From the NCBI GenBank assembly GCA_021647505.1, contig JAKIUN010000006.1, positions 36,085-100,084 on the forward strand: a DNA stretch of 64,000 nucleotides, in the 5' to 3' direction. The notes beneath the pieces were generated by a model. It saw nothing but the letters and a program-made list of their open reading frames with translations. It did not search any database and was not told the origin of the DNA. A program made the translations under genes and the position numbers. Position 1 is the first letter of the stretch; every line of letters starts with the position of its first letter. Below are positions 26,192 to 60,559 of this stretch, in pieces. This DNA comes from Gammaproteobacteria bacterium (GTDB taxonomy: Bacteria > Pseudomonadota > Gammaproteobacteria > SZUA-152).

Positions 26192-26204
26192 AAATCGTTA
26201 CCCA
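26189..26204 (-). promoter_or_regulatory. Weak candidate sigma-54 promoter for fliEFGHI
   Basis: Minus strand TGGGTAACGATTTGCC has GG and GC separated by 10 bp and TTTGC at -12, but the -24 element departs from TGGCAC at three positions. Position (between fleR stop and fliE) and the known FleQ/FleR control of fliE in pseudomonads support it; the match alone does not. Confidence 0.3.
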
Positions 26205-26219
26205 TCAAAAAACAACGGC

Positions 26220-27650: not shown

Positions 27651-27662
27651 ATAACCTCCTAA

Positions 27663-27927
27663 GGGCCTGTTAACACTTATTGCACCGCCGCGACGGTGGC
27701 CATTTTTTTGTAGGGCAAGGCGCATTGAGCACCGTGTACTGAATGTACATAAGCGAAATGCAACACCGCCCTGCGGAAAAATGGCCCCGTCCCTTCGGGT
27801 TGCGCCCCAAAACGGGCCATGCAGCGTTGCTCGTCGTTCATTTGGAACCACCAAACTTCTCTCCTCGCGCCTTGCATGGCCCGTTTTGGGGCGGCAACGC
27901 GGTGGTGCAATAAGTGTTAACAGGCCC
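27663..27927. mobile_element. 265-bp MITE-like cloverleaf element between fleS and fleR
   Basis: The ends are inverted repeats beginning GGGCCTGTTAACACTTATTG, about 29 bp with one mismatch, flanked by TAA on both sides (27660-27662 and 27928-27930), a probable 3-bp target duplication. Inside are two further hairpins: GCCCCAAAACGGGCCATGCA (27804-27823) with its perfect complement at 27873-27892, and GGCCATTTTT (27698) with AAAAATGGCC (27777-27786). It has no coding capacity. It inserted two bases upstream of the fleR ribosome-binding site and now separates fleS and fleR by about 300 bp. Confidence 0.8.
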
Positions 27928-27953
27928 TAACAAAATCTGTTGCCACGGACGCA

Positions 27954-29069: not shown

Positions 29070-29142
29070 AGTCACGCCTCGTTCTGACTGTTGCTGTCCG
29101 CCGCAGGTTTTCCTGCAGGCGGTACCTTGACAGCCATGAGTG

Positions 29143-29158
29143 AGCAAAATGCGTGCCT
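29143..29158 (-). promoter_or_regulatory. Sigma-54 promoter of fleSR
   Basis: The minus strand reads AGGCACGCATTTTGCT, agreeing with TGGCACG-N4-TTGCW at every informative position except the first T. Transcription would start near 29131, 62 bp upstream of the fleS ATG. It is placed between fleQ and fleS, as expected for FleQ-activated fleSR. Confidence 0.85.
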
Positions 29159-29213
29159 AAATAATATTTTCCTTTTTATTCAGTTGGTTAGGATATCCAA
29201 GAAAAAGCAGGAG

Positions 29214-30638: not shown

Positions 30639-30874
30639 TTTTTTCTCCGTGCACCAATCGAGCACTCTATCCATATGTACCTTGACGGAGTGCTTAGGCT
30701 CCGTCAATTTTCCCAGCCCGCTAAGTAAAACACCTGATTTCCGATATGTCAAAATATTGTCACGAGTAGTGCAGGAAAAATACCTTTAAAAACGAAGAGC
30801 TATCAGCTTTCCCTGAATACGGGCACAAAGAAACCGGTTCAACTTGCTATTCATTCACAGCTGCCCCACATTCC

Positions 30875-43072: not shown

Positions 43073-43433
43073 GAGGGGCAGATTAATTCAAGCAAGGCCG
43101 TACCGGCAAGTGGACACATTCTGACGGCCAACAAAAAAACTGGCATGTAATCTGCTTGCCTCATCCGAAACCCTTAAATAGGCCTACCAAGCGTCATGAA
43201 ATCGTCAACTCTCATCTGGCTTGAAAAACACACCCCGCCCACGGTGTCGGGCACGGATCATTTTTCCATCGATGATCACGAATTGCCCCCCCCCCAACAC
43301 GTCGTATAGTAGTGACGACAGGGTGCCACTGATGATTGGCAAAAGGCCCGCAACACCCACCCCTGTATGTGGAGTTTTCCTCTGTTGACGCCCGGAATTA
43401 CCGCTACAGACCACAGTGTTGGAACCGATACCC
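43073..43433. other. Divergent intergenic region before the glycosyltransferase operon
   Basis: About 360 bp between the PilZ-like gene and the sigma-28 promoter. A 38-codon ATG frame at 43196-43312 has only a weak ribosome-binding site and no recognisable features. A run of nine C lies at 43288-43297. Nothing else is recognisable. Confidence 0.4.
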
Positions 43434-43459
43434 GACAGTTTCCAACACCAGGCCGATAA
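43434..43459 (+). promoter_or_regulatory. Candidate sigma-28 (FliA) promoter
   Basis: GACAGTTT-N10-GCCGATAA. The -10 element is a perfect match to the FliA consensus GCCGATAA and the -35 agrees at 6 of 8 positions with TAAAGTTT; the spacer is one base shorter than the usual 11. It lies 62 bp upstream of the first glycosyltransferase gene, in the right orientation. Confidence 0.65.
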
Positions 43460-43521
43460 CCAGCAGTGGCTACCATGTCATCACCAACCTAGCTACCTTT
43501 CATCTCCCGCGAGATTAGCCA

Positions 43522-45462
43522 ATGCAAAATACCCTGACTGAGTACGCTGGAAAAAACAAAGATACCTTGCACAACAATCTTGTTGCTCTGGAAAAACACC
43601 ATCCGCATATTTACCGCATGGTGGAACCGTTGCTAGACACGGTCAGTATACGCCTTGACCCCCAGGAAACCCTGTATATCACAAGAAATGGGCAACAAAT
43701 CATTATATCTAAGCAGCGCAGAGACGCCGTACTCGCCACAGTGGTAATACCAGAAATCCGAGAGCCGGTTCACCTGCTCGTGGGACTGGGTGTTGCTGAT
43801 GAACTGTTGGCAACATACCGAAACACAGAGGCCCCAAGACCGGAGCTACCAAGCTATAAATTACCCATCTATATCCTGGAGCCCGAACCCCTGATGCTCA
43901 TCGCTGCAATGTGGTTACATAATTTGATGCCACAGCTAAACTCTGGGCGAGTGCAGTTATTCCTGGGCGTAAATGCTTCCGATGAACTGCTGGAATACCT
44001 GGAATCAAACCATCAATCCCAGTATCCAACACATTCACTATCGATGTGGTACCCAAATGATCATCCTGTGGTGCACAACACCTTTGATGGCATCAAGCAA
44101 TTGATCGACCGAACCAACGCTGCCGTATACAAGTTGGAAACAGACATCAATGACTATTACAAAAAATTTACTAATAATGATTGGCATGAGGTCTTCACGT
44201 CGAGAACCCGCCCCCTGCGGGTGATGGGCTGTACATCGCGGTTTACAAGCTTCCTGCAATATTGCGTCAGGGATTTGATATCAGGGTTTGAAAGGCTCGG
44301 CCATCAAGCACTAATACATATCGAAGAATCGGACATCAGCCGAGCCACAAAATATGACATCCTATCCACCATCCTATATTTCAAGCCGGATCTCATAATT
44401 CATCTCGATCATTTCAGGGATGAGTGGCCATATTTGCCTGCAAATGTTCCATTCGTGAACTGGATACAGGACATGCTACCAAACATTACGAAACCTGATG
44501 CTCGCATCCTACACCCGCTGGACTTTACTTACGTTTTTGCCCCTGGATGGCTAAACAAACTGAAAAGCATGCCCATGTATGCAAAACATCCGATCAATGT
44601 TTTGACCCTCGGCATCAACCCGGATATCTATCATCCCATCAGCAATACCACGAAGGACATAGATCTTCTGTATGTTTCACACCTGGTGAGCGTTGCTAAC
44701 ACCTTGCGGCCGCTGGTCGACACATTGAAAAATTTTGACATCGATGACAAAGAAATAGAATTATTGGACACTGGCGCCATCAGCTATGAACAGCTACTAG
44801 TTGTCTACATGTTGATGACAAAAACTTTCGACAACCTGCTGATAGATGACCTCTGGAAATACGTCGGCAACAACCAAGTTCGTCGATCACTTGTTACACG
44901 AACTCTCGCCACCGCCGGTATCGAGGAAAATGACATCGTTGTTGAGCATTTCTTTAACTCGCGGCGCATCCACAACGACATCTACTACGCAATAAAAACG
45001 AGGCCTCTTAAAACCCTGGCAAAACAAGGCGTGAACCTCCAAATCTATGGTAAACACTGGGATCAGGACAGGGAGCTTTCCAGATTTTCACACGGCCCTA
45101 TCGACAACGGTGAACCACTCAACATGTTGATGAATCAGTCGCGCATCTGCCTGAACAACAGCCCGGGTACCTCTTTGCATATGCGATCAGTTGAAATTAT
45201 GGCCTCGGGATGTTTCATGCTGAGCCGGGAAATTGAACCCGACACCTCCAGTATCCGGGAATATTTTGACGACCAGGACGGCCTCGGATTTTTCAAGAAT
45301 GAAATTGACATAGGCCCGATAACAAAGTATTGGCTGGCGCAGGATAATCTGGATAAGATAAGTGCGCCTGCCCACAAAAAGGCGCTGGCGCTATTCGATT
45401 ACAAAGTAATCACTCAAACAATTATTGATAATGTATCTGCCAGGTGCAAAAATACGCAATGA
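43522..45462 (+). CDS. Glycosyltransferase with Maf-like N-terminus and CgeB-like C-terminus
   Basis: A 646-residue predicted cytosolic glycosyltransferase. The N-terminal part (about 1-210: NLVALEKHHPHIYRMVEPLL, VHLLVGLGVADELLATY, IYILEPEPLMLIAAM) resembles the beginning of motility-associated factor (Maf) proteins that glycosylate flagellin. The rest is a GT-B fold of the CgeB type: PFVNWIQDMLP, NVLTLGINPDIYHP, LNNSPGTSLHMRSVEIMASGCFMLSRE. It is the first gene of a four-gene operon. The Maf resemblance, with the FliA-type promoter, points to flagellin as acceptor; this is inference. Confidence 0.75.
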   Translation: MQNTLTEYAGKNKDTLHNNLVALEKHHPHIYRMVEPLLDTVSIRLDPQETLYITRNGQQIIISKQRRDAVLATVVIPEIREPVHLLVGLGVADELLATYRNTEAPRPELPSYKLPIYILEPEPLMLIAAMWLHNLMPQLNSGRVQLFLGVNASDELLEYLESNHQSQYPTHSLSMWYPNDHPVVHNTFDGIKQLIDRTNAAVYKLETDINDYYKKFTNNDWHEVFTSRTRPLRVMGCTSRFTSFLQYCVRDLISGFERLGHQALIHIEESDISRATKYDILSTILYFKPDLIIHLDHFRDEWPYLPANVPFVNWIQDMLPNITKPDARILHPLDFTYVFAPGWLNKLKSMPMYAKHPINVLTLGINPDIYHPISNTTKDIDLLYVSHLVSVANTLRPLVDTLKNFDIDDKEIELLDTGAISYEQLLVVYMLMTKTFDNLLIDDLWKYVGNNQVRRSLVTRTLATAGIEENDIVVEHFFNSRRIHNDIYYAIKTRPLKTLAKQGVNLQIYGKHWDQDRELSRFSHGPIDNGEPLNMLMNQSRICLNNSPGTSLHMRSVEIMASGCFMLSREIEPDTSSIREYFDDQDGLGFFKNEIDIGPITKYWLAQDNLDKISAPAHKKALALFDYKVITQTIIDNVSARCKNTQ

Positions 45463-46277
45463 AAAATGACAGCCCGGAAAGCCATGTATTCTATGTGACA
45501 TCCCGAGGATATGCTGCCGACCATTGGTATGCTTGGTTCGTAAAGGCGCTCAACGCACACCCTGAATTACTGGCATACCTGGCCAACGAGGGATCCCGAC
45601 CGAAATATTTCACCGAAAAAACCCGGGCAGAACGACCAGACATCGTGCAATACACCCGGTTCATGGCTGACGTCGGCATGACATACACTGGCATAGGCGA
45701 TTGCTACTCATATCGCGCCAACAAGCTTGATCAACTATTCCGCGAGTTTGGTGATACAGTCCGCGTCGTCAACCTCGTCCGCCACCCCTATGCATGGCTT
45801 CGATTCTATGTGCGCTGGCGTATGCACAACATGAGAATGTCCAATGGACAGGGCGCCCCCATTGAACATGAATGGCGTATATCCAACCACGAGCTATTTA
45901 AGAAGCTAGGCCTGCGCGATTACACCAAGAGCGACATTGAAATATGGGCGACATACCAGGGTATGCATCATCTCAACAACATCCTCGACGACTACTCTGC
46001 CAACATTAAACACATACCACTTGAACAACTCGTTAAAAGTCGGGAAACATTTCTTGAGGTGGTCAACTATCTCACTCACAGAAGAATTACGTACAGCAAT
46101 AACTTGCTTGATACCATTTACAGCTGGGTTTGGACGCCCTTTCGTGGTGAGGGAAGACTAGCCGTAAATCCTGACAGCGAAGCCCTGGATTGGCCCAACT
46201 GGAAAATAGAAGCCTTTGAATTATTGCATAGCGAAAAAGCGAGAAAATGTTATGAGCAATTCGGTTACCGCTATTGA
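45459..46277 (+). CDS. Sulfotransferase-like protein
   Basis: A 272-residue protein of the sulfotransferase superfamily by pattern: VFYVTSRGYAADHWYAWFVKAL at the place of the PAPS loop, though lacking the usual SGT core, and VRVVNLVRHPYAWLRFYVRWR for the 3'-phosphate site (RHP). The missing Lys/Thr in the first loop makes catalysis uncertain. The start at 45459 overlaps the glycosyltransferase stop by 4 bp (ATGA); the track's GTG at 45444 is an alternative. It overlaps the next gene by 26 bp. Confidence 0.6.
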   Translation: MKNDSPESHVFYVTSRGYAADHWYAWFVKALNAHPELLAYLANEGSRPKYFTEKTRAERPDIVQYTRFMADVGMTYTGIGDCYSYRANKLDQLFREFGDTVRVVNLVRHPYAWLRFYVRWRMHNMRMSNGQGAPIEHEWRISNHELFKKLGLRDYTKSDIEIWATYQGMHHLNNILDDYSANIKHIPLEQLVKSRETFLEVVNYLTHRRITYSNNLLDTIYSWVWTPFRGEGRLAVNPDSEALDWPNWKIEAFELLHSEKARKCYEQFGYRY

Positions 46278-47091
46278 GTCTGTCTCACAAAGTGAAACAG
46301 GCCCCATTATCATGTCCTCGGTGTTTAAGTCCGGCACTTGGCTGCTACGATTCATTGTCGAAAGACTCACTGGCCTTAGCTGCTATGAGCCCCCCATTAA
46401 GGCCGGAGCAATGGATCCTACCGATCCGGATCTGATAAGCATCAAGGCGGGCCACTTTTATTCATGGCACTTTATCCCATCGTCTCCAGTTCAGGAGAAG
46501 CTGATACGAATCAACGCAAGGCCGATATTTCTGATGCGTAACATCTACGATCTGGTGGTTTCCATGTACTACCATTTTGCAAATAATATTGATCATGAAA
46601 TCGGTAGAGGAGCTAACAAACACGGCTATTTTTCCCTCCTTGGAAAAGATGCCGGAATTCAGAAAATCATAACTGGCTGCGACGATACAGAATTTAAATG
46701 GAGAGGTATCGGCCATCATCTTCACCAGATGGAGTGCATGTTTCAATTTGCCAGTGTATTTCCCTGTCACCTTGCCGGCTATGAGGACATTGTCAGCAAC
46801 AAGGAAAAAAGCATCCGGGCACTCGCCGAATTTCTGGATATCTCCCTACCTCTGAACGATCTCGATGAACTGGTGCGCAGCTCTGGCTTTGACGCCATGA
46901 AATCTTCTGCACTAAAACAAAACAAGGCTTCCCACTTCCGGCAAGGAAAAATACAATCACACACCCATGAACTTAGCCTAAAACATATCCAGGAAGTACA
47001 GGAATGTCTCGAAAAATATGCACCAAAATTGGCCCCACTGGCCACTCGGGCAGGTTTCAACAGCCTGTTGAACGAGTCCATGGCCCAGTAG
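46252..47091 (+). CDS. Sulfotransferase-family protein
   Basis: A 279-residue sulfotransferase. The PAPS loop IIMSSVFKSGTWLLRFIVE, the 3'-phosphate site PIFLMRNIYDLVVSMYYHF and the C-terminal FRQGKIQSHTHEL (comparable to the FRKGxxGDWKN segment of cytosolic enzymes) are all present. I chose ATG 46252, which overlaps the previous gene by 26 bp, over the upstream TTG. Its place among glycosyltransferases suggests sulfation of a glycan or its precursor. Confidence 0.78.
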   Translation: MSNSVTAIESVSQSETGPIIMSSVFKSGTWLLRFIVERLTGLSCYEPPIKAGAMDPTDPDLISIKAGHFYSWHFIPSSPVQEKLIRINARPIFLMRNIYDLVVSMYYHFANNIDHEIGRGANKHGYFSLLGKDAGIQKIITGCDDTEFKWRGIGHHLHQMECMFQFASVFPCHLAGYEDIVSNKEKSIRALAEFLDISLPLNDLDELVRSSGFDAMKSSALKQNKASHFRQGKIQSHTHELSLKHIQEVQECLEKYAPKLAPLATRAGFNSLLNESMAQ

Positions 47092-47098: not shown

Positions 47099-48238
47099 AT
47101 GAAAATTGGCGTATTTCTTCCCCAAAAGAATCACTTTTACCAACATATCGCAGCGGCACTGAAGACGGCCTTCGAAGCCCACGGGCTAGAGACCTACTGT
47201 GACCTCGCCTTATATAAGCCAAAGGCCCTGTCTCGATTTTGCCGGGAATTCAAACCGGATTGTATTTTCGAGATGAACAGGTCTCGAAGCGAACTGCCGG
47301 AATTACCCGGGAGCATCATTCATATTTCGTGGATCGTCGATCTGCTGGGCCGCGATATCGATGATATCCAGGAAAGTGAAATAATCTACTTCTTTGGAAC
47401 CGGCTGGAAGGACATCCACACCAACAAACATGCATCCCTGGTTGACTGGTTGCCAGCGGGATTTTGCCCCCAGACTTACAAACTATGCCATAGTCGGAAA
47501 ACTGTGGATTTCTCCTTCATCGGGCATATACCTCGGCCATGGTCTAGTGCAGAGCTGGAGCGTATTGTCGGTACCGGTGACGCTGACCCATACACCTTCG
47601 AACAACTATTTGAACAGTGCAGATTGACGTGGGCCAAACATGGTGGGTTGCATCAACTACGACCCGAGCAGTACCTGCATCTGGTGGCGGAGGTACTGGC
47701 CAATGGTACAAGAGCTGATTTTCGTATTTCAGATCGCACCATGAAGTACGATATTGAAACGCGCAGCACACGAATGATAAACCGACAGCACGCGATCGAT
47801 TCAGCCCTTTCGGTATCCACCGCTATTTCCATTCATGGCTCCACAAACTGGCTTGAGTGGGATCGTTATCGGCCCCATTACCGCGGTTACCTCAACAGTC
47901 ACCAGGACATTCGTGAAGTATACCAGAGGTCAAAGCTCAACCTGCATGAGGGAATCGGGTTACATTTTCGCACCTTGGATTGCATGGGGGCTGGCGGTTT
48001 ACTCGCGTTCAAGCCTACCAGCCGGGACGGTGATCCTGACGGCATCAACAGTCATTTCGAGCCCTTCCGACACTACATACCGCTGGATATAGGTGGTGAC
48101 CGCAAACACCTGAAGTATTATTTGCAAAACGAAAAGGAAATATCGAGAATTGCAGAGGAAGCCTCGAAGCTGGCTCACCAACAACATACATGGCAGGTTC
48201 GATGTAAAAAAATAGTGGCTGACATCGCCTCGTTATAG
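47099..48238 (+). CDS. CgeB-like glycosyltransferase
   Basis: A 379-residue GT-B-type glycosyltransferase with the CgeB/Glycos_transf_1_2 pattern: MKIGVFLPQKNHFYQHIAAALK, CIFEMNRSRSELPELPG, IIHISWIVDLLG, DFSFIGHIPRPW, VYQRSKLNLHEGIGLHFRTLDCMGAGGLLAFKP. It is probably cytosolic, with no membrane segment. It is the last gene of the operon that begins at 43522 and is convergent with the next glycosyltransferase, 6 bp apart. Confidence 0.78.
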   Translation: MKIGVFLPQKNHFYQHIAAALKTAFEAHGLETYCDLALYKPKALSRFCREFKPDCIFEMNRSRSELPELPGSIIHISWIVDLLGRDIDDIQESEIIYFFGTGWKDIHTNKHASLVDWLPAGFCPQTYKLCHSRKTVDFSFIGHIPRPWSSAELERIVGTGDADPYTFEQLFEQCRLTWAKHGGLHQLRPEQYLHLVAEVLANGTRADFRISDRTMKYDIETRSTRMINRQHAIDSALSVSTAISIHGSTNWLEWDRYRPHYRGYLNSHQDIREVYQRSKLNLHEGIGLHFRTLDCMGAGGLLAFKPTSRDGDPDGINSHFEPFRHYIPLDIGGDRKHLKYYLQNEKEISRIAEEASKLAHQQHTWQVRCKKIVADIASL

Positions 48239-48244: not shown

Positions 48245-49513
48245 TCAGGAAGTGCTTGATCGATTCAACCATGCCGTAAATCTATCGACAAAACGCTCTA
48301 TGGCATACTTTTTCTGAGCGACCTCAATATTGTCACTGAACTGGCTGAGGTCAATATCTTCCAGCATCTTGACGAGATTCGATCTGTCGTCCTTTCCCAC
48401 CACGATACCGATCCCGTTTTCAAGCACAAACTCCGCCATATGGTTGAGTTCCTCACTGACAATTACCGGTAGCCCAGCAGACAAATAGGTGAAAAGCTTG
48501 CTGGCCATGGTCTCCCGCAGGTGAGATTTTCCAACCGCGAGACCCCGGTCGAAGTCGAACAACACCAAACCGTAGTCATACTTTCCGTGCAAGGCGCGTA
48601 TGATATCCGGCATATCAATTCCCTCGCGGAACACAAAGCGTGGATTGTTCCGCATCTCCCGGTGATAATCACTAAACAGATCCTGGCAAAGCTCCCGGGT
48701 TGAGAATACGGAATTAAACACCGTCAACTCCGCTCCTTGTTGCGTCAGCTCGCGAATCAAACTCAAATAATCAAGATCCCCGAACACCGCAACCGGCGCC
48801 TGATTGTTCATGACTTGCCCGGCATACACCAAGCGGATTCCGCCGGCCCAACCATGCCGCTTGGGCGCTTCCATCCACTGCGACGGGGGACAGGGATACA
48901 ACTGCATGGATGAAGTTTTCGCCTCCATCAATTTCCCCTCAATCCAACTTCCATTATCCTTATGGATCAGTAAATCACTATGTTGCCGCGTATAGGCCTC
49001 GTCTTCGATGATCGTCTCAATTTGCAATTTATCGAACATCCCGGAATCGATAAACTGGCGAGAATCACCGATAAATGACTCCATCCAATCGTAGACCTCA
49101 TGTGCAATTTTCAACCCGGAATTCAACTCGCGAATCCTTCTGAACAGGAAAATCCAGCGCCCATGCGCCTGCAAATAAAAATGCACCGGAGGAAGCTGAC
49201 TGACGATTGCGTCAAGGTCTACCAGACTCTTGTCACAATGAAACAGGGCATGATATACATTTTTTGGTGGCCGCGACTTGAGATAAATCCCATAGGTGCG
49301 ATACTGGCCCTTATCACTGATGGTCGACGCGATGTATTCAATGCTGGGAAAATTCCCACGATTTACTGCAACGAACACCAATACAGGAACCCCATCGCAG
49401 ATCGACATCCTGATATCCGATACCAGTTCTTCAGGAGTCGAAAACAAAACCTCGTTATTTTGTTGGTTGCGGGATGATGAAGGCCTGACTACTGTATTCA
49501 CTATCATATCCAT
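48245..49513 (-). CDS. Glycosyltransferase-like protein (GT-B type)
   Basis: A 422-residue protein with a two-lobed layout: an N-terminal part with VLVFVAVNRGNFPSIEYIAS and a C-terminal GT-B domain GGIRLVYAGQVMN, FGDLDYLSLIRELTQQGAELTVFNS, and LRETMASKLFTYLSAGLPVIVSEELNHMAEFV, the usual nucleotide-sugar site. No signal peptide or membrane segment. It is transcribed after the B12-binding radical SAM gene with a 74-bp gap and may be co-transcribed. Confidence 0.7.
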   Translation of the reverse strand: MDMIVNTVVRPSSSRNQQNNEVLFSTPEELVSDIRMSICDGVPVLVFVAVNRGNFPSIEYIASTISDKGQYRTYGIYLKSRPPKNVYHALFHCDKSLVDLDAIVSQLPPVHFYLQAHGRWIFLFRRIRELNSGLKIAHEVYDWMESFIGDSRQFIDSGMFDKLQIETIIEDEAYTRQHSDLLIHKDNGSWIEGKLMEAKTSSMQLYPCPPSQWMEAPKRHGWAGGIRLVYAGQVMNNQAPVAVFGDLDYLSLIRELTQQGAELTVFNSVFSTRELCQDLFSDYHREMRNNPRFVFREGIDMPDIIRALHGKYDYGLVLFDFDRGLAVGKSHLRETMASKLFTYLSAGLPVIVSEELNHMAEFVLENGIGIVVGKDDRSNLVKMLEDIDLSQFSDNIEVAQKKYAIERFVDRFTAWLNRSSTS

Positions 49514-49587: not shown

Positions 49588-51573
49588 TCACTCGGCCACT
49601 GTCATCGCATCAAGCTGCGGTTGACACATGTTCCCCGCATCAGTTTCGTTGGGTTCGGTGAGTGTGAACGATTGATTCCAGGAAAGTATCCTGTCGCTGC
49701 TGACACCAGCCTTCAACAGAAGATCCATGGCAGCCCGGTACTCAACCCAGGGCAGGATCAGAAAAGCGGCATGAATATTATCTTGTACACTGCCGGGGTC
49801 GAGCATCTTCGTGACCTGCCCCAGAAACATCTCCCCGATACGGCCTTCCCTGCTGTCCAACACTGCGGTCACATTTAGGCCGCGCAGTGAAATATCGTCA
49901 CTAAATACCGAAAAATAGCGATCCATCGCCGGCAATACCACTACCTCTGTGCCGGTAAGTACCAGCCGATCAACATGCTGCTGAAAATTCGCGAAAATAT
50001 CACTGATATGGGGAATTTGAATGGCGGCCAAATGCATCTTTCGACAGCAGGAGGGGCATAAAATATTGACTCCTAGCATCCCGATGGGCGCGTCCCGATT
50101 TACATAACCATCATCACGGGAATCCAAGGGATACCGGAAATCGGTGTGTATATTATGCGTGCACGAAGGACACTCAATGACCAGTTTTGACAACCAGCTG
50201 CCCGCATACTTCGATGCCTTTACCCTGGCCAGCCGCTTGCGGTGGTTCAGATCATTAACCTCGCGTAGCTTGATGTACCAGTCCGCATATTGTTCATCAG
50301 TCATTCGGGTCATGTTGATCTGGTGCTTGTAGAGATAATCAGAGATATTGCACTGACTGCGAATGAATGCCTCCTTATCCTCGATCAGCCCCTTATTGAA
50401 GGCACCATCGAATATCTGCGTTCCGGCATAAGGGATGACTGCCGACCAGTCGGTGAAATAAAGCTCGTTTTCCTGCTGAAAGCGCAGGCTCTCCTCGATT
50501 GTTTCCATGGATTCAGCGGGGTCGCCGAAGAGAAAATTTGCCTGAAATCCGACATTGGCCTTTCGAGATATCTTTACTGCATTAGCAATATCTGAGGCCT
50601 TTATCTTTTTCCTCATGCTGCTCAGCACTGTATCTGAGCCACTTTCAAAACCAAAGGAAATATAGTTGCATCCCGAATTTTTCATTAAATTCAACAACCC
50701 CTGATCCAGTTGATCCACACGCAACTGGCAAAACCACTTGATATTCAGCTGCCTTTCCAGAAGCAGCTCGCAAAATTCTTTTATACGCTTGCGGTTCGCT
50801 GAAAAAAGCTCGTCATAGATGGAAATACATGAAACCTTATATTTCTTAATGTATTCCTCAATCTGATCCACCACCCGAGAAATATCATGACGTTTGTATT
50901 TCCCCATGCCAGCATGGTGACAGAATGTACACTTGAATGGACATGAACGGCTGGCCAGGATCGGTATGGACTGTCCCATGTCGTATCGAACCAGGTGATA
51001 GCTGACTTGTGCACTCCTCTGAATGGCGATATGCCGCTCAATGCCCATCAAATCCAGGTCTGGCTCCTCCAGCGTATTCAGGTCCTCAACCTCTGGACCC
51101 TTTCCGGTATAAAACGGTGTATCTCCCATCCAACACCAGATCCCAGCCACTGAGGAAGGAGGATACTCACCAGCAATGGCCTTGAGAAGGTTGACAAAAA
51201 TCACCTCCCCCTCATTGACAACCATGTAATCAGGTTTCAGGGTTCGCATCACAAGCTCCCCCTCACAGGAGGTAATTCCTCCCCCCAATACAATGGGGGT
51301 TTTGAGACTGACACTCCTGATCGTCTTAATCAATTTCTCAATTTCGTTGAAACAGACGGTGAGCCCGGTGATACCAATCACGTCGTATTGCCCATCTTCA
51401 ACGCGACTCATCAATAATGCGTACCGATCCGGGGCAGGATAGTGATTCAGGTTGAATCCATCGACGTCATGCCCTCGCGCTTTGGTATAGGAAGCCACAT
51501 AAGCCAGTCCCAAGGGGAAGTACGCTGCATTGACCTGCGGATGATAGGACGGTGCCAGCAGAAGTATTTTCAT
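49588..51573 (-). CDS. B12-binding-domain radical SAM enzyme with C-terminal zinc-ribbon region
   Basis: A 661-residue protein. Residues about 1-150 form a B12-binding-like domain (LLLAPSYHPQ, PLGLAYVASYTKARGHDV, VLGGGITSC), the radical SAM core follows at about 205-420 with the cluster motif CPFKCTFCHH (CxxxCxxC). After it, residues about 470-545 have paired CPSC motifs (CPSCTHNIH and CPSCCRKMH) resembling a zinc ribbon, then a Rossmann-like tail. Many such enzymes methylate or rearrange unactivated carbons. The classic DxHxxG cobalamin motif is not seen, so cobalamin binding may be base-off or absent. The added C-terminal part is unusual. Confidence 0.82.
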   Translation of the reverse strand: MKILLLAPSYHPQVNAAYFPLGLAYVASYTKARGHDVDGFNLNHYPAPDRYALLMSRVEDGQYDVIGITGLTVCFNEIEKLIKTIRSVSLKTPIVLGGGITSCEGELVMRTLKPDYMVVNEGEVIFVNLLKAIAGEYPPSSVAGIWCWMGDTPFYTGKGPEVEDLNTLEEPDLDLMGIERHIAIQRSAQVSYHLVRYDMGQSIPILASRSCPFKCTFCHHAGMGKYKRHDISRVVDQIEEYIKKYKVSCISIYDELFSANRKRIKEFCELLLERQLNIKWFCQLRVDQLDQGLLNLMKNSGCNYISFGFESGSDTVLSSMRKKIKASDIANAVKISRKANVGFQANFLFGDPAESMETIEESLRFQQENELYFTDWSAVIPYAGTQIFDGAFNKGLIEDKEAFIRSQCNISDYLYKHQINMTRMTDEQYADWYIKLREVNDLNHRKRLARVKASKYAGSWLSKLVIECPSCTHNIHTDFRYPLDSRDDGYVNRDAPIGMLGVNILCPSCCRKMHLAAIQIPHISDIFANFQQHVDRLVLTGTEVVVLPAMDRYFSVFSDDISLRGLNVTAVLDSREGRIGEMFLGQVTKMLDPGSVQDNIHAAFLILPWVEYRAAMDLLLKAGVSSDRILSWNQSFTLTEPNETDAGNMCQPQLDAMTVAE

Positions 51574-52241: not shown

Positions 52242-53405
52242 ATGAAACCATCACCCCTCGTCTCTATCGACGCCCCCATACAGCCGGCCACGCCCACAGC
52301 GACACTCGATCGCTTCGCCATCGACAGCCACAAGCTGATCTACCACCCCCATCGTGTGGCCCAGTGGCTGGATGCGCGGGACGACTGGGACGCGGCACGT
52401 AGTGTGTACCCCATCTATGTAGAGATGTCCCCGGTGGGGGCCTGCAATCATCGCTGCCGCTTCTGCGCGGTGGACTACATCGGCTACCAAGCCAAGCGCC
52501 TGGATCTGGAACAGATCACCCCCAGACTGCAGGAAATGGGAAATTTGGGGGTGAAAAGCATCATGTTCGCCGGCGAAGGCGAGCCTCTGTTGCACAAGCA
52601 GCTGCCAGAGATGATTGAGGTCTGTGCCGACAGCGGTATCGACACCGCCATCACCAGCAACGCCACGGTGGTGTCCGACAAGTTCCTCGACCGCGCCCTG
52701 CCCCACGTGTCCTGGTTCAAGGCCTCGGTGAACGCCGGCAGCGCCGAAACCTACGCCGATATCCACCAAACCCGTGCCGATGATTTCCACAAGACCCTGG
52801 ACAATCTGCAGCGCCTGGTGGCGCACCGCGACCGGCACGGCCATCGCTGCACCCTGGGCGCACAGTCCCTGCTACTGCCGGAAAACCGACACGAAATGGT
52901 CAAACTGGCAAGATTGTGCCGCGACCATATCGGCCTCGACTACTTGGTGGTCAAACCCTACTCCCAACACCTGTTCAGCAATACCCACACCTACGAAGGC
53001 ATTATCTACGAGGACATGAACCAACTGGCCAGCGAACTGGCGGCGGAGAACCGTGACGGTTTCAGCGTGGTATTCCGCAGCAATACCATGCGCAAGCTCG
53101 GAGAACAGCAGGAACAGCGCTATCCCCGCTGCGGCGCCACGCCCTTCTTCTGGGCCTACGTGATGGCGGATGGCTCCGTGTACGGTTGCAGCGCCTACCT
53201 CACCGACCGACGTTTCAATTACGGCAATCTCAACCAGCGAAGCTTCGAGGACATCTGGCAGGGCGAAGAAAGGAAAGCTAATTTCAGTTATGTGCAAAAA
53301 CAACTGAACATCCGCGACTGCCGCACCAATTGCCGCATGGATGATATCAACCGCTACCTGCACGCCCTGGCGACGGACAGCGTGGCGCATGTGAACTTTA
53401 TTTAA
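52242..53405 (+). CDS. Radical SAM/SPASM enzyme 1
   Basis: A 387-residue radical SAM protein. The cluster motif is CNHRCRFCAVDY. The core continues with SIMFAGEGEPLLHKQL and ITSNATVV. The C-terminal SPASM-like region provides Cys residues in YPRCGATPF, VYGCSAYL and DCRTNC for an auxiliary Fe-S cluster. It ends in HVNFI, an ending also found in radical SAM enzyme 2 (HINFI). Start supported by AAGGA 4 nt upstream. It is the first gene of the sigma-54-driven operon. The reaction is unknown; a sugar-carbon oxidation or dehydration is one possibility. Confidence 0.85.
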   Translation: MKPSPLVSIDAPIQPATPTATLDRFAIDSHKLIYHPHRVAQWLDARDDWDAARSVYPIYVEMSPVGACNHRCRFCAVDYIGYQAKRLDLEQITPRLQEMGNLGVKSIMFAGEGEPLLHKQLPEMIEVCADSGIDTAITSNATVVSDKFLDRALPHVSWFKASVNAGSAETYADIHQTRADDFHKTLDNLQRLVAHRDRHGHRCTLGAQSLLLPENRHEMVKLARLCRDHIGLDYLVVKPYSQHLFSNTHTYEGIIYEDMNQLASELAAENRDGFSVVFRSNTMRKLGEQQEQRYPRCGATPFFWAYVMADGSVYGCSAYLTDRRFNYGNLNQRSFEDIWQGEERKANFSYVQKQLNIRDCRTNCRMDDINRYLHALATDSVAHVNFI

Positions 53406-53658: not shown

Positions 53659-54648
53659 ATGAAGGCACTGGTCACTGGCGGCGCGGGATTCATCGGCAGC
53701 CACCTGGTCGAACGACTGATCCGCGACGGCCATCAGGTCATCGCCCTGGACGACCTTTCCAGCGGTCGCTGGGAAAACCTGGCGCCGGTAAAGGATGTCC
53801 CGGGCCTGCAACGGATCGAGGCCGACATCACCAACAAGGCAACCATCCGCCCTCACTTCGACGCTGTGGACTGGGTGTTCCATCTGGCAGGCAAAGCCGA
53901 CATCGTGCCTTCCATCGAACATCCCGATATTTATTACGCGGCCAATGTGCAGGGAACTTTCAACGTGCTGGAATGTAGCAGGACGGCAAACATCAAGCGG
54001 CTGATTTATGCCGCCTCCTCTTCCTGCTACGGCATCCCCGACATTTTTCCGACACCGGAGAGCGCCGAGATCCGCCCTCAGTATCCCTACGCCTTGACCA
54101 AATATTTAGGCGAGGAAATGGTGTTGCACTGGGCGCAGGTCTACGGCCTGCCCGCCCTCTCCCTGCGCCTGTTCAACGTCTACGGCCCGCGTTCACGCAC
54201 CACCGGTGCCTACGGCGCGGTGTTCGGCGTATTTCTTGCCCAAAAACTGGCGGACAAGCCCTACACGGTGGTTGGCGATGGCAACCAGAGCCGCGACTTC
54301 ACCTACGTCAGCGACGTCGCCGATGCCTTTGCCTGCGCTGCTGCGGCCAATATCAGTGGCAAAATTTTCAATGTTGGCAGCGGCCACCACTACAGTATCA
54401 ACGAACTAGTCGGCCACCTCGGCGGTACAGTGGAATACATCCCCAAACGCCCCGGCGAACCCGACTGCACCTTCGCCGATATTCAGCGTATTCGCACACA
54501 ACTGGGCTGGGAGGCCAAGGTGGATTTCGCTACCGGTGTCACCCGCATGCTCGAATCCATCGAACTTTGGCACGAGGCGCCGTTGTGGGACGCTGACTCC
54601 ATCCACAACGCCACCCGCAACTGGTTCAAATATCTCGGAGATCACTGA
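53659..54648 (+). CDS. NAD-dependent sugar-nucleotide epimerase/dehydratase
   Basis: A 329-residue extended SDR. The NAD loop is VTGGAGFIGSH, the catalytic Ser is in AASSSCYG and the Tyr/Lys in YPYALTKYLGEEM. LRLFNVYGPRSRTTGAYGAV and GDGNQSRDFTYVSDVADAF are characteristic of GalE/WbpP-type epimerases acting on UDP- or GDP-sugars. The exact substrate cannot be read from sequence. GAGGAG lies 8 nt upstream. It ends one base before the SIS gene start. Confidence 0.88.
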   Translation: MKALVTGGAGFIGSHLVERLIRDGHQVIALDDLSSGRWENLAPVKDVPGLQRIEADITNKATIRPHFDAVDWVFHLAGKADIVPSIEHPDIYYAANVQGTFNVLECSRTANIKRLIYAASSSCYGIPDIFPTPESAEIRPQYPYALTKYLGEEMVLHWAQVYGLPALSLRLFNVYGPRSRTTGAYGAVFGVFLAQKLADKPYTVVGDGNQSRDFTYVSDVADAFACAAAANISGKIFNVGSGHHYSINELVGHLGGTVEYIPKRPGEPDCTFADIQRIRTQLGWEAKVDFATGVTRMLESIELWHEAPLWDADSIHNATRNWFKYLGDH

Positions 54649-54649: not shown

Positions 54650-55246
54650 ATGCTGACACGCACCGCTTTCATCACCCATGCCCGGGAATTTTCCAACATC
54701 GTCAGCGCGGGCATCTTCAGCGAAAAATCCACGCAAGAGTTTTCCCACGACCAAGGTATCGAACAACTGATCCACCTGCTGACTGACATCCGTACCCGGG
54801 GCGGTGACCTGTACATTATCGGCAATGGCGGTAGCGCCGCCGTCGCCAGCCATGCCGTCACCGACTTTTTCAACGTCGGCGGCCTGCGCGCCATGACCCT
54901 GCACGATTCATCCACTCTCACTTGCTTCAGCAACGACTACGGCTACGAAAACGCCTTCTCGCGCCGTGTCGAACGCCTACTCACGGCAAACGACGCACTC
55001 ATCGCCATCAGCAGCTCGGGACAGTCAAAAAACATCATCAACGCCTGCCGATGCGCAACCGCCTGTTCCGCAAAGGTGATCACTCTCTCCGGCTTCCGCA
55101 CCGACAACCCGTTGCGCCGCCTTGGAGATATCAATTACTGGTTAAACTCAGACGACTACGGCATGGTGGAAATCGGCCACCTGTTCCTGCTGCATTACAT
55201 TGCCGATCTGCTGGGTCTGGACTGGAGTAATGAAGACGATGGCTAA
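54650..55246 (+). CDS. SIS-domain sugar isomerase (GmhA-like)
   Basis: A 198-residue phosphoheptose-isomerase-like protein: DLYIIGNGGSAAVASHAVTDFFN, LTCFSNDYGYENAFSRRVE, DALIAISSSGQSKNIINAC, and the C-terminal VEIGHLFLLHYIADLL with the His-rich zinc-binding end of GmhA. It would convert sedoheptulose 7-phosphate to a heptose 7-phosphate. It starts immediately after the epimerase and overlaps the kinase gene by 8 bp. The GmhA assignment is supported by the following HldE-like gene. Confidence 0.83.
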   Translation: MLTRTAFITHAREFSNIVSAGIFSEKSTQEFSHDQGIEQLIHLLTDIRTRGGDLYIIGNGGSAAVASHAVTDFFNVGGLRAMTLHDSSTLTCFSNDYGYENAFSRRVERLLTANDALIAISSSGQSKNIINACRCATACSAKVITLSGFRTDNPLRRLGDINYWLNSDDYGMVEIGHLFLLHYIADLLGLDWSNEDDG

Positions 55247-56810
55247 GGGAAGCGTGGTCAAACTCAAACCGCAGGAAGCAGCAGAAAGCCCGCCCGGAAA
55301 GCTCATGAGCCTGCCGGCGCTGGCGGCCTTTGCCGCCGACTGCCGCCACTGCGGTGAACGCATTGTGCTCTGCCACGGCACTTACGACCTCATGCACATC
55401 GGTCACATCAAGCACCTGCAGGCGGCACGTAAACTTGGTGATCGGCTGCTAGTGACACTGACCGCCGACACCTTCGTCAACAAGGGCCCGGATCGACCCG
55501 TATTTACCGAAACCCTGCGCGGCGAAAGCATTGCTGCACTGGACTGCGTGGACGGCGTAGCCATCAATGCCGCCGAGACCGCCATCCCCGTCATCGAGGC
55601 CCTGCGCCCACACATCTACGTCAAGGGCAGCGACTACATCCGTGCGCAGGACGACGTAACGGGAAATATCCACCGCGAGCAGGTGGCTGTGGAAGGTGTG
55701 GGTGGCCGCATCCACTTCACCCAGGAGGCCACCTTCAGCTCCAGCAACCTACTCAACGAACACTTCAGCGCCCTCGACGACGAGGTGCGCAACTTCCTGC
55801 GCGGCTTTCGCCAGCGTCACGACGCTGAAAGCCTGAAACTGTGCCTCAACCGCCTGGCCGGCCTCGAGGTGCTGGTGCTCGGCGACATCATCATCGACGA
55901 ATATCACTACACTCGACCGCTGGGGCAAACCGGCAAGGGCAACGTGCTGGCGGTGCAATACGAAAGCCAAGAGCGCTTTGCCGGTGGCGCCATCGCCGTG
56001 GCCAATCACGTTGCTGGCTTTACCCGCAAGGTCACCCTGCTGGGTGGCCTCGGCGGCCAGGCATCGCACGAAGATTTCATCCGCAAACACCTGCGCGATA
56101 ATATCCAGCCACGTTTCTTCACCAATGACACCGCCCATACCCTGGTCAAACGCCGCTATATCGGCGACGACGCCAGCAAGCTGTTCGAGGTCTATTTCGG
56201 TGGCGAGGCCCTGACTTCAGCGGAAATAGAGAGTGATATATGCCGCTGGCTGGACGGCCACCTCGAACGCTTCGACGCCGTCATCGTTCCCGATTTTGGC
56301 AATGGCTTTATTACCTCCGGTATGATCGACAGCCTTGCCGGCGGCGCACGCTTTCTCGCCGTCAACACCCAGGTCAACAGCGGCAACCGCGGCTATCACG
56401 TCATTACTCGCTACCCACGCGCTGACTTCGTCTCCCTCAACGAACCGGAGCTGCGCATGGCTGCGGGCAACCGCCAGGGCGACATCGAGCACATCGCCCG
56501 CGACATCGCCGTGCGACTGGGCGCAGCACATCTCGCCGTCACCCGCGGCACCCGTGGCGTGCTGATGCAGGAGTGCGCCATCGACGCCAGTCATGCCATC
56601 CCGGCGCTATCAGGACGAGTGGTCGATCGCATCGGCGCCGGCGACGCCTTTCTCTCTCTGGCCGGGTTGTGCCTATGTGCTGACATCCCGGCGGACATCG
56701 CCGCCTTCTTTGGCAGCATCGCCGGGGCCATGAACGTGCAGACCGTGTGCAACCGCGAGCCGGTGGATCCGGTGCAGTTCCAGAAATACCTCACCACCCT
56801 GCTGAAATGA
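55239..56810 (+). CDS. HldE-like bifunctional enzyme with reversed domain order
   Basis: A 523-residue fusion. Residues about 35-165 are a nucleotidyltransferase (VLCHGTYDLMHIGHIKHLQAARKLGD, then PHIYVKGSDYI), and about 195-520 a PfkB/ribokinase-type kinase (LVLGDIIIDEY, FAGGAIAVANHVA, IPALSGRVVDRIGAGDAFLSLAG). E. coli HldE has kinase first and nucleotidyltransferase second; here they are swapped. Together they would phosphorylate a heptose 7-phosphate at C1 and activate it as the ADP or CDP form. The start at 55239 is favoured by GGAG 11 nt upstream; it overlaps the SIS gene by 8 bp. No GmhB phosphatase is nearby. Confidence 0.85.
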   Translation: MAKGSVVKLKPQEAAESPPGKLMSLPALAAFAADCRHCGERIVLCHGTYDLMHIGHIKHLQAARKLGDRLLVTLTADTFVNKGPDRPVFTETLRGESIAALDCVDGVAINAAETAIPVIEALRPHIYVKGSDYIRAQDDVTGNIHREQVAVEGVGGRIHFTQEATFSSSNLLNEHFSALDDEVRNFLRGFRQRHDAESLKLCLNRLAGLEVLVLGDIIIDEYHYTRPLGQTGKGNVLAVQYESQERFAGGAIAVANHVAGFTRKVTLLGGLGGQASHEDFIRKHLRDNIQPRFFTNDTAHTLVKRRYIGDDASKLFEVYFGGEALTSAEIESDICRWLDGHLERFDAVIVPDFGNGFITSGMIDSLAGGARFLAVNTQVNSGNRGYHVITRYPRADFVSLNEPELRMAAGNRQGDIEHIARDIAVRLGAAHLAVTRGTRGVLMQECAIDASHAIPALSGRVVDRIGAGDAFLSLAGLCLCADIPADIAAFFGSIAGAMNVQTVCNREPVDPVQFQKYLTTLLK

Positions 56811-56830: not shown

Positions 56831-57095
56831 GTGTACTGCGTCGCTCTTGGAGGTGCATTCAGTGAGCCACAGCGCGGCCAGATGCAAGGCGCGGCTGCGC
56901 CGGAAGGGCTGTTCCCTTTCAAGCAGCCGCAACGCCGCAGGTGGTCGCGCTGTGGCTCACCCGGAGGGAGCCCCCCAAAAACACCAGGATCGCGTTGCGG
57001 CACTTGTAAAGGGCTGGGCCATTCACTGCGTGCCGCGCCTTGTCCTGGCACTTTTGGGGGGCTCTGAATGTACCGCCAAGAGCAACGCAGTACAC
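56831..57095. mobile_element. 265-bp cloverleaf-like inverted-repeat element entering the E1-alpha gene
   Basis: The ends (56831-56862 and 57064-57095) are complementary at 29 of 32 positions, starting GTGTACTGCG. Inside are two perfect-to-near-perfect hairpins: GTGAGCCACAGCGCGGCC with its complement (56862-56960) and GAGCCCCCCAAAA...TTTTGGGGGGCTC (56968-57064). It therefore tiles into a stem with two arms. Length and layout equal those of the element at 27.7 kb, although the sequences differ. No target duplication is obvious. Its right end contains the E1-alpha start codon and first nine codons. Confidence 0.75.
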
Positions 57096-58042
57096 TAGAT
57101 CTGTTCCGACAAATGCTACGCATCCGCCGCGTCGAAGAGGCGCTGGCCGAGCGCTACACCGAACAGAAAATGCGCTGCCCGATGCACCTGTGCATCGGCC
57201 AGGAAGCCACCGCAGTAGGCGTCATCTCCGCCCTGGCGGAAGAAGACCGCGTATTCAGCGGCCACCGCGCCCACGGCCACTATCTGGCCAAAGGCGGCGA
57301 TCTCACCGCCATGATTGCCGAACTCTATGGCCGCGCCAGTGGTTGCAGCCAGGGGCGCGGCGGCTCCATGCACCTAATCGACACAGATGCCGGTTTCATG
57401 GGCTCCACGGCCATCGTCGGCGGCACCGTGCCAATGGCGGTGGGTGCCGCCTGGGCCAGCCAGCTACGTGGCGAGGGCCGTGTGGTCTGCCTGTTCTTCG
57501 GTGACGGCTGTTTCGAGCAGGGCGTGATGCACGAGTCGATGAACTTCGCCGCTCTGCACCGGCTGCCGATCCTGTTCGTGTGCGAGAACAATCACTATGC
57601 CGTCTATACCCCGTTAGAAAAAAGACAGCCCGGGCGGCCGATCCACGCCATCGCCGACGCCCATGGCCTGCACGCGCAAGAACTGGACGGCAACCGTCTA
57701 CCTGCCGTGCGCACCGCAGCCGATAAGGCCGTGCACCGCACCCGCGCCGGCGACGGCCCACAGTTTCTGGAACTGCACACCTGGCGCTGGCGTGAACACT
57801 GCGGCCCGGATGTCGACGACCACCTGGGTTATCGCACCCCCGAGGCGCAGGCCGACTGGCTGGCCCGCTGCCCCATCGAACACGAGGCTGTGCGTCTGCG
57901 TGCGCTCGGACTGCTCGACGACAACGACAGGCAATACCTCGAAAACGCTATCCAACATGAAATAGACCTCGCCTTCGACAGCGCCCTGCGCGCCCCACTG
58001 CCCCGCGTGGAAGATATGTATGGACACCTCTATGGTCAGTAA
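57068..58042 (+). CDS. Thiamine-diphosphate enzyme, E1 component alpha subunit
   Basis: A 324-residue subunit of the pyruvate/acetoin dehydrogenase E1-alpha type: LFRQMLRIRRVEEALAERY, HLCIGQEATAVGV, RVFSGHRAHGHYLAKGG, GGSMHLID and the ThDP motif GDGCFEQGVMHESMNFAALHRLPILFVCENN. Its first nine residues (MYRQEQRST) are encoded by the end of an inverted-repeat element, and conserved sequence begins right after it. No E2 or E3 gene follows, so a decarboxylating transfer of a two-carbon or acyl group to a sugar is more likely than a classical dehydrogenase. It overlaps E1-beta by 23 bp. Confidence 0.88.
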   Translation: MYRQEQRSTLDLFRQMLRIRRVEEALAERYTEQKMRCPMHLCIGQEATAVGVISALAEEDRVFSGHRAHGHYLAKGGDLTAMIAELYGRASGCSQGRGGSMHLIDTDAGFMGSTAIVGGTVPMAVGAAWASQLRGEGRVVCLFFGDGCFEQGVMHESMNFAALHRLPILFVCENNHYAVYTPLEKRQPGRPIHAIADAHGLHAQELDGNRLPAVRTAADKAVHRTRAGDGPQFLELHTWRWREHCGPDVDDHLGYRTPEAQADWLARCPIEHEAVRLRALGLLDDNDRQYLENAIQHEIDLAFDSALRAPLPRVEDMYGHLYGQ

Positions 58043-59141
58043 GCCATTGGCCGATATTTCCCCGTCACTCGCCGTACGCGAGCAAACCGGCATTGAGGCC
58101 CTCAACGATGCGCTGAGCCTGTGCCTGCAACGCGACCCGACGACCCTGCTGATCGGCGAGGGCGTGCCCGACCCCAAGGGCATCTTCGGCACCACCAGCG
58201 GCCTACGCCAGCGCTTTGGCCCACAACGCGTGCTGGACATGCCGCTGGCCGAGAACGCCCTCACTGGCATCTGCATCGGCGCCGCCATCAGCGGCCTGCG
58301 GCCGATCATGGTGCATCAGCGCATCGACTTCGCCCTGCTGGCCATGGATCAGCTCATCAATAACGCCGCCAAATGGCGCTACATGTTCGGCGGTCAGGCC
58401 CAGGTACCGCTAGTGGTGCGCTGTATCGTCGGCCGCGGCTGGGGTCAGGGGCCACAGCATGCGCAAAGCCTGCAAAGTCTGTTCGCCCATATCCCGGGGT
58501 TGAAGGTAGTGATGCCGGTATTCCCCGACGACGCCAAGGGCATGCTGTGCGCCGCCGTCGCCGACAATGACCCGGTGATCTTCATTGAGCACCGCTGGAT
58601 ACATCCGCTGCGCGGCAAAGTCCCTACCGGCTATTTTGAAACACCACTGGGCAAGGCGCGGCGACGCCGCAAAGGCAGTGACATCACCATCGCCACCTTT
58701 TCCTATATGACCATCGAAGCTCTGAGCGCCGCGCACAGTCTCGCCCGCCTGGGTATCGAAGCCGAAATTATCGACATGCGCAGTGTCAGTCCGCTGGATG
58801 TGCCCGCGGTGCTGCGTTCGGTGGCCAAGACAGGCCACCTGTTGGTGGCGGACACGGGGCACCAGAGCTTTGGCGTCACCGCCGAGCTCATCGCCCGCGT
58901 CAGCCGCCAGGGCTTCGACCACCTGCGCGCCGCGCCCGCCAGCGTCGCCCTGCCCGACCTGCCCTGCCCCACCTCGCACGCCTGGGCCGGACACTATTAT
59001 CCGACCGCCGCCAGCATCGCCGAGCAGGCGCTGCGGGTGTGTGGCGTTCGTATCGGCGAAGCCCAGCGGCATGAACTGAGCACACTGCAACCGGATACGC
59101 CAGCCGATATTCCCAACCCCGATTATCGCGGCCCTTTCTAG
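58020..59141 (+). CDS. Thiamine-diphosphate enzyme, E1 component beta subunit
   Basis: A 373-residue E1-beta/transketolase C-domain protein: GIEALNDALSLCL, VLDMPLAENALTGICIGAAISGLRPIMVHQRIDFALLAMDQLINNAAKWRYMFGGQ, and RSVSPLDVPAVLRSVAKTGHLLVADTGH. It forms the active site jointly with E1-alpha. The ORF start (58020, GGAAG 6 nt upstream) overlaps E1-alpha; ATG 58032 is an alternative. Acceptor substrate unknown. Confidence 0.88.
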   Translation: MDTSMVSKPLADISPSLAVREQTGIEALNDALSLCLQRDPTTLLIGEGVPDPKGIFGTTSGLRQRFGPQRVLDMPLAENALTGICIGAAISGLRPIMVHQRIDFALLAMDQLINNAAKWRYMFGGQAQVPLVVRCIVGRGWGQGPQHAQSLQSLFAHIPGLKVVMPVFPDDAKGMLCAAVADNDPVIFIEHRWIHPLRGKVPTGYFETPLGKARRRRKGSDITIATFSYMTIEALSAAHSLARLGIEAEIIDMRSVSPLDVPAVLRSVAKTGHLLVADTGHQSFGVTAELIARVSRQGFDHLRAAPASVALPDLPCPTSHAWAGHYYPTAASIAEQALRVCGVRIGEAQRHELSTLQPDTPADIPNPDYRGPF

Positions 59142-59179: not shown

Positions 59180-60559
59180 ATGTCTAACAACCAGCCACAG
59201 AAAAACCGCTTCGGTAACACCGTGCAGACCGACCTGCCCGACGATGCACCGCGCGCCCGGCAGCCCGGCCACAAGCTACGCACCTCCAACGACATCGTCG
59301 ACCGCAGCGAATTGGAATCCGGCAATACGCAGAGCGCCTCGGTGCACACCCTGCAGGGTCAGCAGATCCAGTTGGTGCACATCGAAGAGCAGGTCGGCCT
59401 GGTGCGCCTGGAAACGGCACAACCGGCCAGCGTACCGAATCAATTCACCGGCCCCAGCTACCGCAATCACAGCGAGCGCTTCCGCTTCGATGGCCACAAG
59501 ATGCTGCACCACCTCGACCGAGTGATGGCCTGGCAGAACGGCGAACGTTTTTCCCCCGTGCACATCGACATGGGGCTGACAAAATTCTGCAACACAGCCT
59601 GTATTTACTGTTATGCCGTAGTGCAGAACATGACCAAGGGCACGATGATCGAACGTGACGCCCTGTTGCGTTACATCGAGGACTGCGGGCGTCTCGGCGT
59701 GCGCTCGCTGGGCTTCATCGGTGACGGCGAACCGACACTGAACCCGGCGCTCTACGACGCCACCGTACTGGCCGGACAACAAGGCATTGACACATCCATG
59801 GCCACCAACGGCCTGCTGCTGGACATGGATCGCGTCCATGAGCTGCTAGCCAATATGTCGTGGATTCGCTTCAACCTCTCCGCCGGCACGCCCGAAGGCT
59901 TTCAGCGGGTGCACCAGTCCAAGGCCAGGAACTTCGATCTTCTGGTGGAAAAGATTCGCAGTCTGGTAGCCATCAAAAAAGAACACAACTACAACTGCAC
60001 CATCGGCCTGCAAATGGTGCTGATCCCCGAATGCTATGACCAAGTGCTGGCCGAGGCGGAACTGGGTGCGGAGCTGGGCGTGGACTATTTCGTCATCAAG
60101 CATTGCTCCGATTCCGAGTACAAGGAAATCGGCATCGACTACAAGGACTATGCCAGCATCGAAGACGTGCTGAAACAGGCAGAAAGCCTGTCAACCGAGG
60201 ATTATGTGGTGCAGGCCAAGTGGAACAAGATTCGTGCCAGTGAAGAAACGGAGCTCTATCGCAATGGCTACCGCAAGTACGACGTCTGTATGGGCACGCC
60301 CTTTCTGCTGCAAATCTCCGGCAACGGCAAGATCTACCCCTGCGGCCCCTTCTTCAACAAGGAACGATTTTATATGGGCGACCTGCACGACGGTTCATTT
60401 TTCGATCTGGTCAACAGCGACCATTACTGGAATGTGCACAAGGACATCGCCGAGTCAGTGGACGTGCACAAGGACTGCGCCATCGGCTGCCGGCAGGATT
60501 ACGTCAACAAATTCCTGTGGGATATTCATAATCCGCCGGAGCATATTAATTTTATTTGA
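59180..60559 (+). CDS. Radical SAM/SPASM enzyme 2
   Basis: A 459-residue radical SAM protein. An N-terminal extension of about 115 residues precedes the core, whose cluster motif is CNTACIYCYAVV, followed by SLGFIGDGEPTLNPAL and SMATNGLLL. The SPASM-like C-terminus has Cys in YDVCMGTPF, IYPCGPFF and DCAIGC, and ends HINFI. It appears to be a distant paralogue of radical SAM enzyme 1 and closes the operon. The two enzymes bracket the sugar-nucleotide and thiamine-diphosphate genes, suggesting two radical steps on one substrate. Confidence 0.85.
   Translation: MSNNQPQKNRFGNTVQTDLPDDAPRARQPGHKLRTSNDIVDRSELESGNTQSASVHTLQGQQIQLVHIEEQVGLVRLETAQPASVPNQFTGPSYRNHSERFRFDGHKMLHHLDRVMAWQNGERFSPVHIDMGLTKFCNTACIYCYAVVQNMTKGTMIERDALLRYIEDCGRLGVRSLGFIGDGEPTLNPALYDATVLAGQQGIDTSMATNGLLLDMDRVHELLANMSWIRFNLSAGTPEGFQRVHQSKARNFDLLVEKIRSLVAIKKEHNYNCTIGLQMVLIPECYDQVLAEAELGAELGVDYFVIKHCSDSEYKEIGIDYKDYASIEDVLKQAESLSTEDYVVQAKWNKIRASEETELYRNGYRKYDVCMGTPFLLQISGNGKIYPCGPFFNKERFYMGDLHDGSFFDLVNSDHYWNVHKDIAESVDVHKDCAIGCRQDYVNKFLWDIHNPPEHINFI

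Follow-up and report, generated by a model that had tools for sequence, protein, structure and literature searches.

A gammaproteobacterial glycosyltransferase-sulfotransferase operon with a probable role in flagellin glycosylation

Introduction

Do the glycosyltransferase and sulfotransferase-type genes that follow a FliA-like site in a gammaproteobacterial contig act on flagellin, and are they under FliA control? A sequence-only reading of this DNA had proposed a FliA-type promoter in front of a gene with a Maf-like N-terminus and two sulfotransferase-type genes, a combination of interest in view of the claimed rarity of sulfated flagellin glycans. We analyzed the operon in its window (the whole 64-kb stretch of DNA studied here, the end of which is the end of the contig), in the other contigs of the same genome and in related genomes.

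Results

Operon layout

The operon consists of four genes, encoding GTa, ST2, ST3 and a second CgeB-type glycosyltransferase (Table 1). The reading frames of GTa, ST2 and ST3 overlap, and the fourth gene, which falls outside the interval 43434-47091 of the sequence-only reading, starts 7 bases past ST3. Relatives of the protein encoded at 48245-49513 are found next to ST3/NeuA in Methylomonas koyamae and next to ST3 in genome G153. The kinase-cytidylyltransferase, the thiamine-diphosphate E1 pair (together 55200-59141) and the SPASM enzymes are kept together in flagellin glycan islands (L103, L024, L026). Upstream, an opposite-strand cluster (36023-43072) encodes three ATP-grasp proteins, a mannitol-1-phosphate dehydrogenase-like protein, an MFS transporter and an atypical PilZ protein; a further sulfotransferase (Sulfotransfer_3/PF00685) is encoded in this cluster at 38170-39030.

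Table 1. Features of the window discussed in the text.
Feature	Position	Strand	Remarks
Flagellar core/regulators: FliI-type ATPase, FliH, FliG, FliF, sigma-54 response regulator, histidine kinase, FleQ-type regulator	20775..30752	-	
Sigma-70-like site TTGCCC-N16-TATAGT	43283..43310	+	9/12 matches, chance-level class
FliA-like site GACAGTTT-N10-GCCGATAA	43434..43459	+	Exact -10, incomplete -35, spacer short by one base
GTa, 646 aa, putative Maf-like N-terminal region and CgeB-type glycosyltransferase domain (PF13524)	43522..45462	+	
ST2, cryptic sulfotransferase-like, 272 aa	45459..46277	+	Start overlaps GTa stop
ST3, PF00685 sulfotransferase, 279 aa, FKSGT and RNIYDLVVSMYYHF motifs	46252..47091	+	Overlaps ST2 stop
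Second CgeB-type glycosyltransferase (PF13524), operon gene 4	47099..48238	+	Relatives in glycan islands
Probable GT-B glycosyltransferase	48245..49513	-	Sub-threshold Pfam
B12-binding radical SAM enzyme, same block	49588..51573	-	
Radical SAM/SPASM enzyme	52242..53405	+	63% identical to G153 gene downstream of flgL
NAD-dependent sugar epimerase/dehydratase	53659..54648	+	62% identical in G153 cluster
PfkB kinase and cytidylyltransferase-like protein	55200..56810	+	60% identical in G153 cluster
Thiamine-diphosphate E1 alpha and beta pair	57068..59141	+	62-65% identical in G153 cluster
Radical SAM/SPASM enzyme	59180..60559	+	79% identical in G153 cluster, 74-75% in Methylomonas/Methylobacter

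Upstream region

As stated in the sequence-only reading, an exact GCCGATAA -10 element is present on the forward strand (43452-43459), 62 bases upstream of the ATG at 43522. The -35 element had been called good, which was overstated. GACAGTTT agrees with the consensus TAAAGTTT in 6 of 8 positions, and both mismatches affect the TAAA core. A FliA promoter would combine TAAA in the -35 element with GCCGATAA at normal spacing; here the core is GACA, and the spacer has 10 rather than the normal 11 bases.

By our penalty score, the site is the best of its kind in the 64-kb window, but 64 kb of sequence should by chance contain 0.36 sites of equal or better score, and at least one such site was present in 32 of 100 shuffled sequences. 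Genome-wide, a near-consensus FliA pattern (at most two mismatches) was matched 40 times, compared to 25 times for the reversed control, so that the motif by itself is weak evidence. The site as a whole is only moderately better than chance. Its location close to the operon, in an intergenic region of 449 bases, somewhat favours it. By plain mismatch count, it also equals or surpasses the sites before the genome's own fliC (TAAAGAAT-N12-ACCGATAA) and flgK (TAAAGAAT-N11-GTCGCTAA), both of which keep TAAAG. No comparable site was found before the GTa orthologues examined in relatives, or before the other operons of the window's glycan block. A FliA above the cut-off is encoded in the genome. Two sigma factors in fact exceed the FliA/WhiG cut-off (G000 contigs C84 and C67; L016, L017), and the second one has recR- and dnaX-like genes (by eye) as neighbours rather than flagellar genes. 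A weaker working FliA site is possible, and FliA control of the GTa operon is a tentative and rather doubtful proposal.

We find it somewhat likely that the match at the GCCGATAA site has arisen by chance and that the operon is driven otherwise, for example from the sigma-70-like site. The expected frequency of such FliA-like sites and their absence before orthologues and the block's other operons agree with this reading; the top rank of the site in the window, its position and its mismatch count relative to the fliC and flgK sites do not. A tract of ten C residues (43286-43295) spans the first hexamer of the sigma-70-like site and extends into its spacer. It exceeds every other C/G run in the window and in the ~133 kb of this genome's other contigs that were scanned, and it might make the sigma-70-like site phase-variable, as a possible slippage site or switch. 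However, base composition alone predicts, by our estimate, about 0.25 such runs per 64 kb, and sigma-70-like matches of this quality are near chance level. For sigma-54, only a poor match was present before GTa. A chance match would concern the promoter only, and is compatible with a flagellin-glycan explanation of the genes.

Gene neighbourhood in relatives

Synteny in relatives, rather than the promoter, strongly suggests that the operon is linked to flagellin glycosylation. The complete, single-contig gammaproteobacterial genome G153 has a flagellar cluster in which GTa, ST2, ST3 and seven further window genes lie between fliC/Maf and flgKL; ten genes of the window block at 43.5-60.5 kb are thus represented. 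The first part of this stretch reads FliG-FliF...FliD-FliC-Maf-LegB-LegC-NeuB-PtmE-NeuA-GTa. On the other strand, the block that closes with ST2-ST3 has the same direction as flgK-flgL, and the order from flgK-flgL is SPASM enzyme, epimerase, kinase-cytidylyltransferase, E1 pair, SPASM enzyme, ST2, ST3 and the relative of the 48245-49513 protein. The FliC proteins of G153 and of our genome are 78% identical.

Linkage to flagellin and flagellar genes was found in G153, G012, BB4, Methylomonas and Methylobacter. GTa relatives are located ~7-21 kb from flagellin in the latter four (about 15-18 kb in Methylomonas/Methylobacter and about 7.5 kb in BB4). In Methylomonas/Methylobacter, the legionaminic genes, FliC, FliD and Maf come after a group made up of GTa relatives, the SPASM enzyme and CgeB-type genes. 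The GTa orthologues of two family members lie in legionaminic islands (G017 with 54% and G012 with 48% identity). Five short tandem flagellin genes are present beside Maf in G012 (L095 13298-18179). In M. koyamae, ST2, ST3, NeuA, LegB and LegC form a row, GTa lies about 4 kb before it, and flagellin is about 50 kb from ST2-ST3 on the same contig.

In our genome, FliC, FliD, Maf and the legionaminic genes are located on a contig (C85) different from that of the operon; in G153, the nonulosonic acid pathway and Maf are contiguous with GTa/ST2/ST3. The only flagellar genes on the contig of the operon are those of the fliFGHI/fleQ cluster, with fliF ~18 kb from the operon.

Within the class, ST2 was detected in 2 of 369 genomes, and within the phylum in 8 of 399 (this genome is counted in both), two of the eight being remote. 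The eight clear ST2 loci are those of this window, M. koyamae, G153, G506, G530, G522, G565 and G467. ST3 is near ST2 in all of them (adjoining in seven, ~3.4 kb away in G522), and a GTa relative is near ST2 in seven. The relative in G565 is distant (24% identity), and the gene order GTa-ST2-ST3 is the same in G467. Several of the ST2 loci other than that of G522 lie on short contigs. As judged from these loci, GTa, ST2 and ST3 are conserved together in several families. At the G530 locus (G530:C33, L118), GTa, a radical SAM gene, ST2 and ST3 follow immediately downstream of genes of chemotaxis type (CheR/CheB/CheD-like by eye), which suggests a connection with motility beyond the gammaproteobacteria.

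Many glycan loci contain CgeB-type transferases and sulfotransferases, and the operon could serve to sulfate a polysaccharide of the cell surface (capsule, LPS or exopolysaccharide) without any connection to flagella. The G522 set, with no flagellar genes seen over about 68 kb around it, would fit such a function, and so would the location of our genome's flagellin on another contig. Against this stand the repeated placement in flagellin/Maf/legionaminic islands and the composition of the glycan block, among the proteins of which no Wzx/Wzy-type flippase or polymerase was seen. We consider a surface polysaccharide unlikely.

Domains and folds of GTa, ST2 and ST3

PF13524 is the sole Pfam match of GTa. 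The Maf-like N-terminus noted earlier finds some support in the predicted structure: the N-terminal region is modelled fairly confidently, and the model has, for the protein as a whole rather than for a given region, a single PDB match below E 0.001, the Maf structure 5mu5 (E 1.7e-5). In GTa orthologues, the best that Maf_flag10_N (PF20157) attained was E about 0.5, which is under the cut-off. Comparison of the GTa profile with those of six Mafs gave no match, and a search with the GTa sequence against solved structures returned nothing useful. PF01973 (MptE-like/Maf) was not detected in GTa; in this genome, only the Maf on C85 matches it. Classification of GTa as a Maf was therefore rejected, and we describe the protein as Maf-like.

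ST3 is, by profile and motifs, a clear sulfotransferase. It matches PF00685 with 60.4 bits (cut-off 22), and the K-x-G-T and R-N-I-Y...S PAPS-binding motifs are kept in six ST3 sequences. The earlier count of two sulfotransferase-type genes is less secure for ST2, which has no Pfam match and a weak fold resemblance. None of the eight ST2 family members matches a sulfotransferase Pfam model. The structural model of ST2 is poor (mean pLDDT 51). In a PDB comparison with this low-confidence model, the first 21 matches were all sulfotransferases, none passing E 0.001, and the top ones include tyrosylprotein sulfotransferases. The ST2 profile matched PDB entries only at E 0.1-0.6 (sulfotransferase domains of CurM and an olefin synthase), and did not match the ST3 profile. 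Sulfotransferases usually have a serine in the 3' PAPS-binding motif and a GTTW-type loop. ST2 relatives share the motifs G...D...W...K.LN.HPE and RHP..WL; the 3' PAPS-binding-like motif of ST2 is devoid of the usual serine, and GDHW is found where the GTTW-type loop would be expected. No ST2 was found in viral contigs. Taken together, the model weakly suggests that ST2 is a cryptic sulfotransferase-like protein.

The tyrosylprotein sulfotransferase matches and the deviant motifs of ST2 would also suit a set of flagellin glycan genes in which ST2 and ST3 sulfate flagellin tyrosines or a small precursor, or in which ST2 is a non-catalytic partner of ST3, but ST3 is a sulfotransferase of the ordinary kind and the surroundings of both genes encode glycosyltransferases, which makes this improbable.

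Discussion

Gene content, domains, operon overlap, the recurrence of GTa-ST2-ST3 and the flagellar synteny in relatives are direct observations. Building on them, we propose that the operon serves a flagellin glycosylation system, in which it extends and sulfates the glycan chain as a cytosolic module, and we regard this role as probable. Maf and the legionaminic-acid enzymes (C85) would place a nonulosonic (legionaminic) acid on flagellin. From this residue the chain would then grow by the action of GTa and the other CgeB-type glycosyltransferases, with sugars provided by the epimerase, kinase-cytidylyltransferase, E1 and radical SAM enzymes. ST2 and ST3 would use PAPS as donor and sulfate the glycan in the cytosol, ahead of export. 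We infer this reaction order and the acceptor, and take ST2 to be catalytic. Neighbouring genes may make another glycan.

There are good grounds to infer sulfation, namely a clear (ST3) and a cryptic (ST2) sulfotransferase conserved with GTa, and an APS kinase encoded in the genome. APS kinase serves sulfate assimilation as well. No membrane span is predicted in the proteins of the glycan block, which fits cytosolic modification before export. In Aeromonas caviae, Maf-dependent flagellin glycosylation is reported to take place before export (PMC4065374).

More broadly, the conserved GTa-ST2-ST3 cassette, with ST2 as a new family of cryptic sulfotransferases, could make sulfate-ester flagellin glycans in several Pseudomonadota lineages, a proposal to which we give about even chances. 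If it is true, some bacteria sulfate their flagella and thereby add negative charge to the filament, which could affect motility, adhesion and phage binding. Flagellin glycoforms of +80 Da should then not be taken as phosphate by default. The gene trio may serve as a marker for picking strains, and cultured Methylomonas strains, among them M. koyamae R-45383 with GTa, ST2 and ST3, allow testing.

Comparison with known systems

GTa resembles the Maf flagellin glycosyltransferases in that 5mu5 is the only significant PDB match of its model, but it has PF13524 in place of PF01973.

The polar flagellin glycan of Aeromonas extends from a nonulosonic acid, and its +80 Da groups were assigned as phosphate (PMC7874193). 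The corresponding island (pse genes, Maf and Fgi-1) is similar to the present system in that a nonulosonic linker is extended by a glycosyltransferase encoded near flagellar genes. It differs in using pseudaminic rather than legionaminic acid, and the text of the paper, in which +80 Da stands for phosphate, has no word starting with "sulf".

A sulfur-bearing flagellin glycan is known from a bacterium, Clostridium difficile type B, the flagellin of which carries a sulfonated, taurine-bearing peptidylamido-glycan (PMC5207245). However, the taurine-containing cap is a sulfonate and not a sulfate ester, and the paper does not mention a sulfotransferase.

In the open literature, outside of which most subscription journals lie, we found no case of a sulfated bacterial flagellin or of a link between flagellin and a sulfotransferase. 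Among archaea, the flagellin and S-layer N-glycan of Halobacterium is sulfated (reviewed in PMC2952790). That glycan shares with the one proposed here a sulfated sugar chain on the protein of a motility filament, and differs in being archaeal and N-linked. If our proposal is true, the sulfate-bearing flagellar sugar of the operon would be a bacterial counterpart of the sulfated archaellins.
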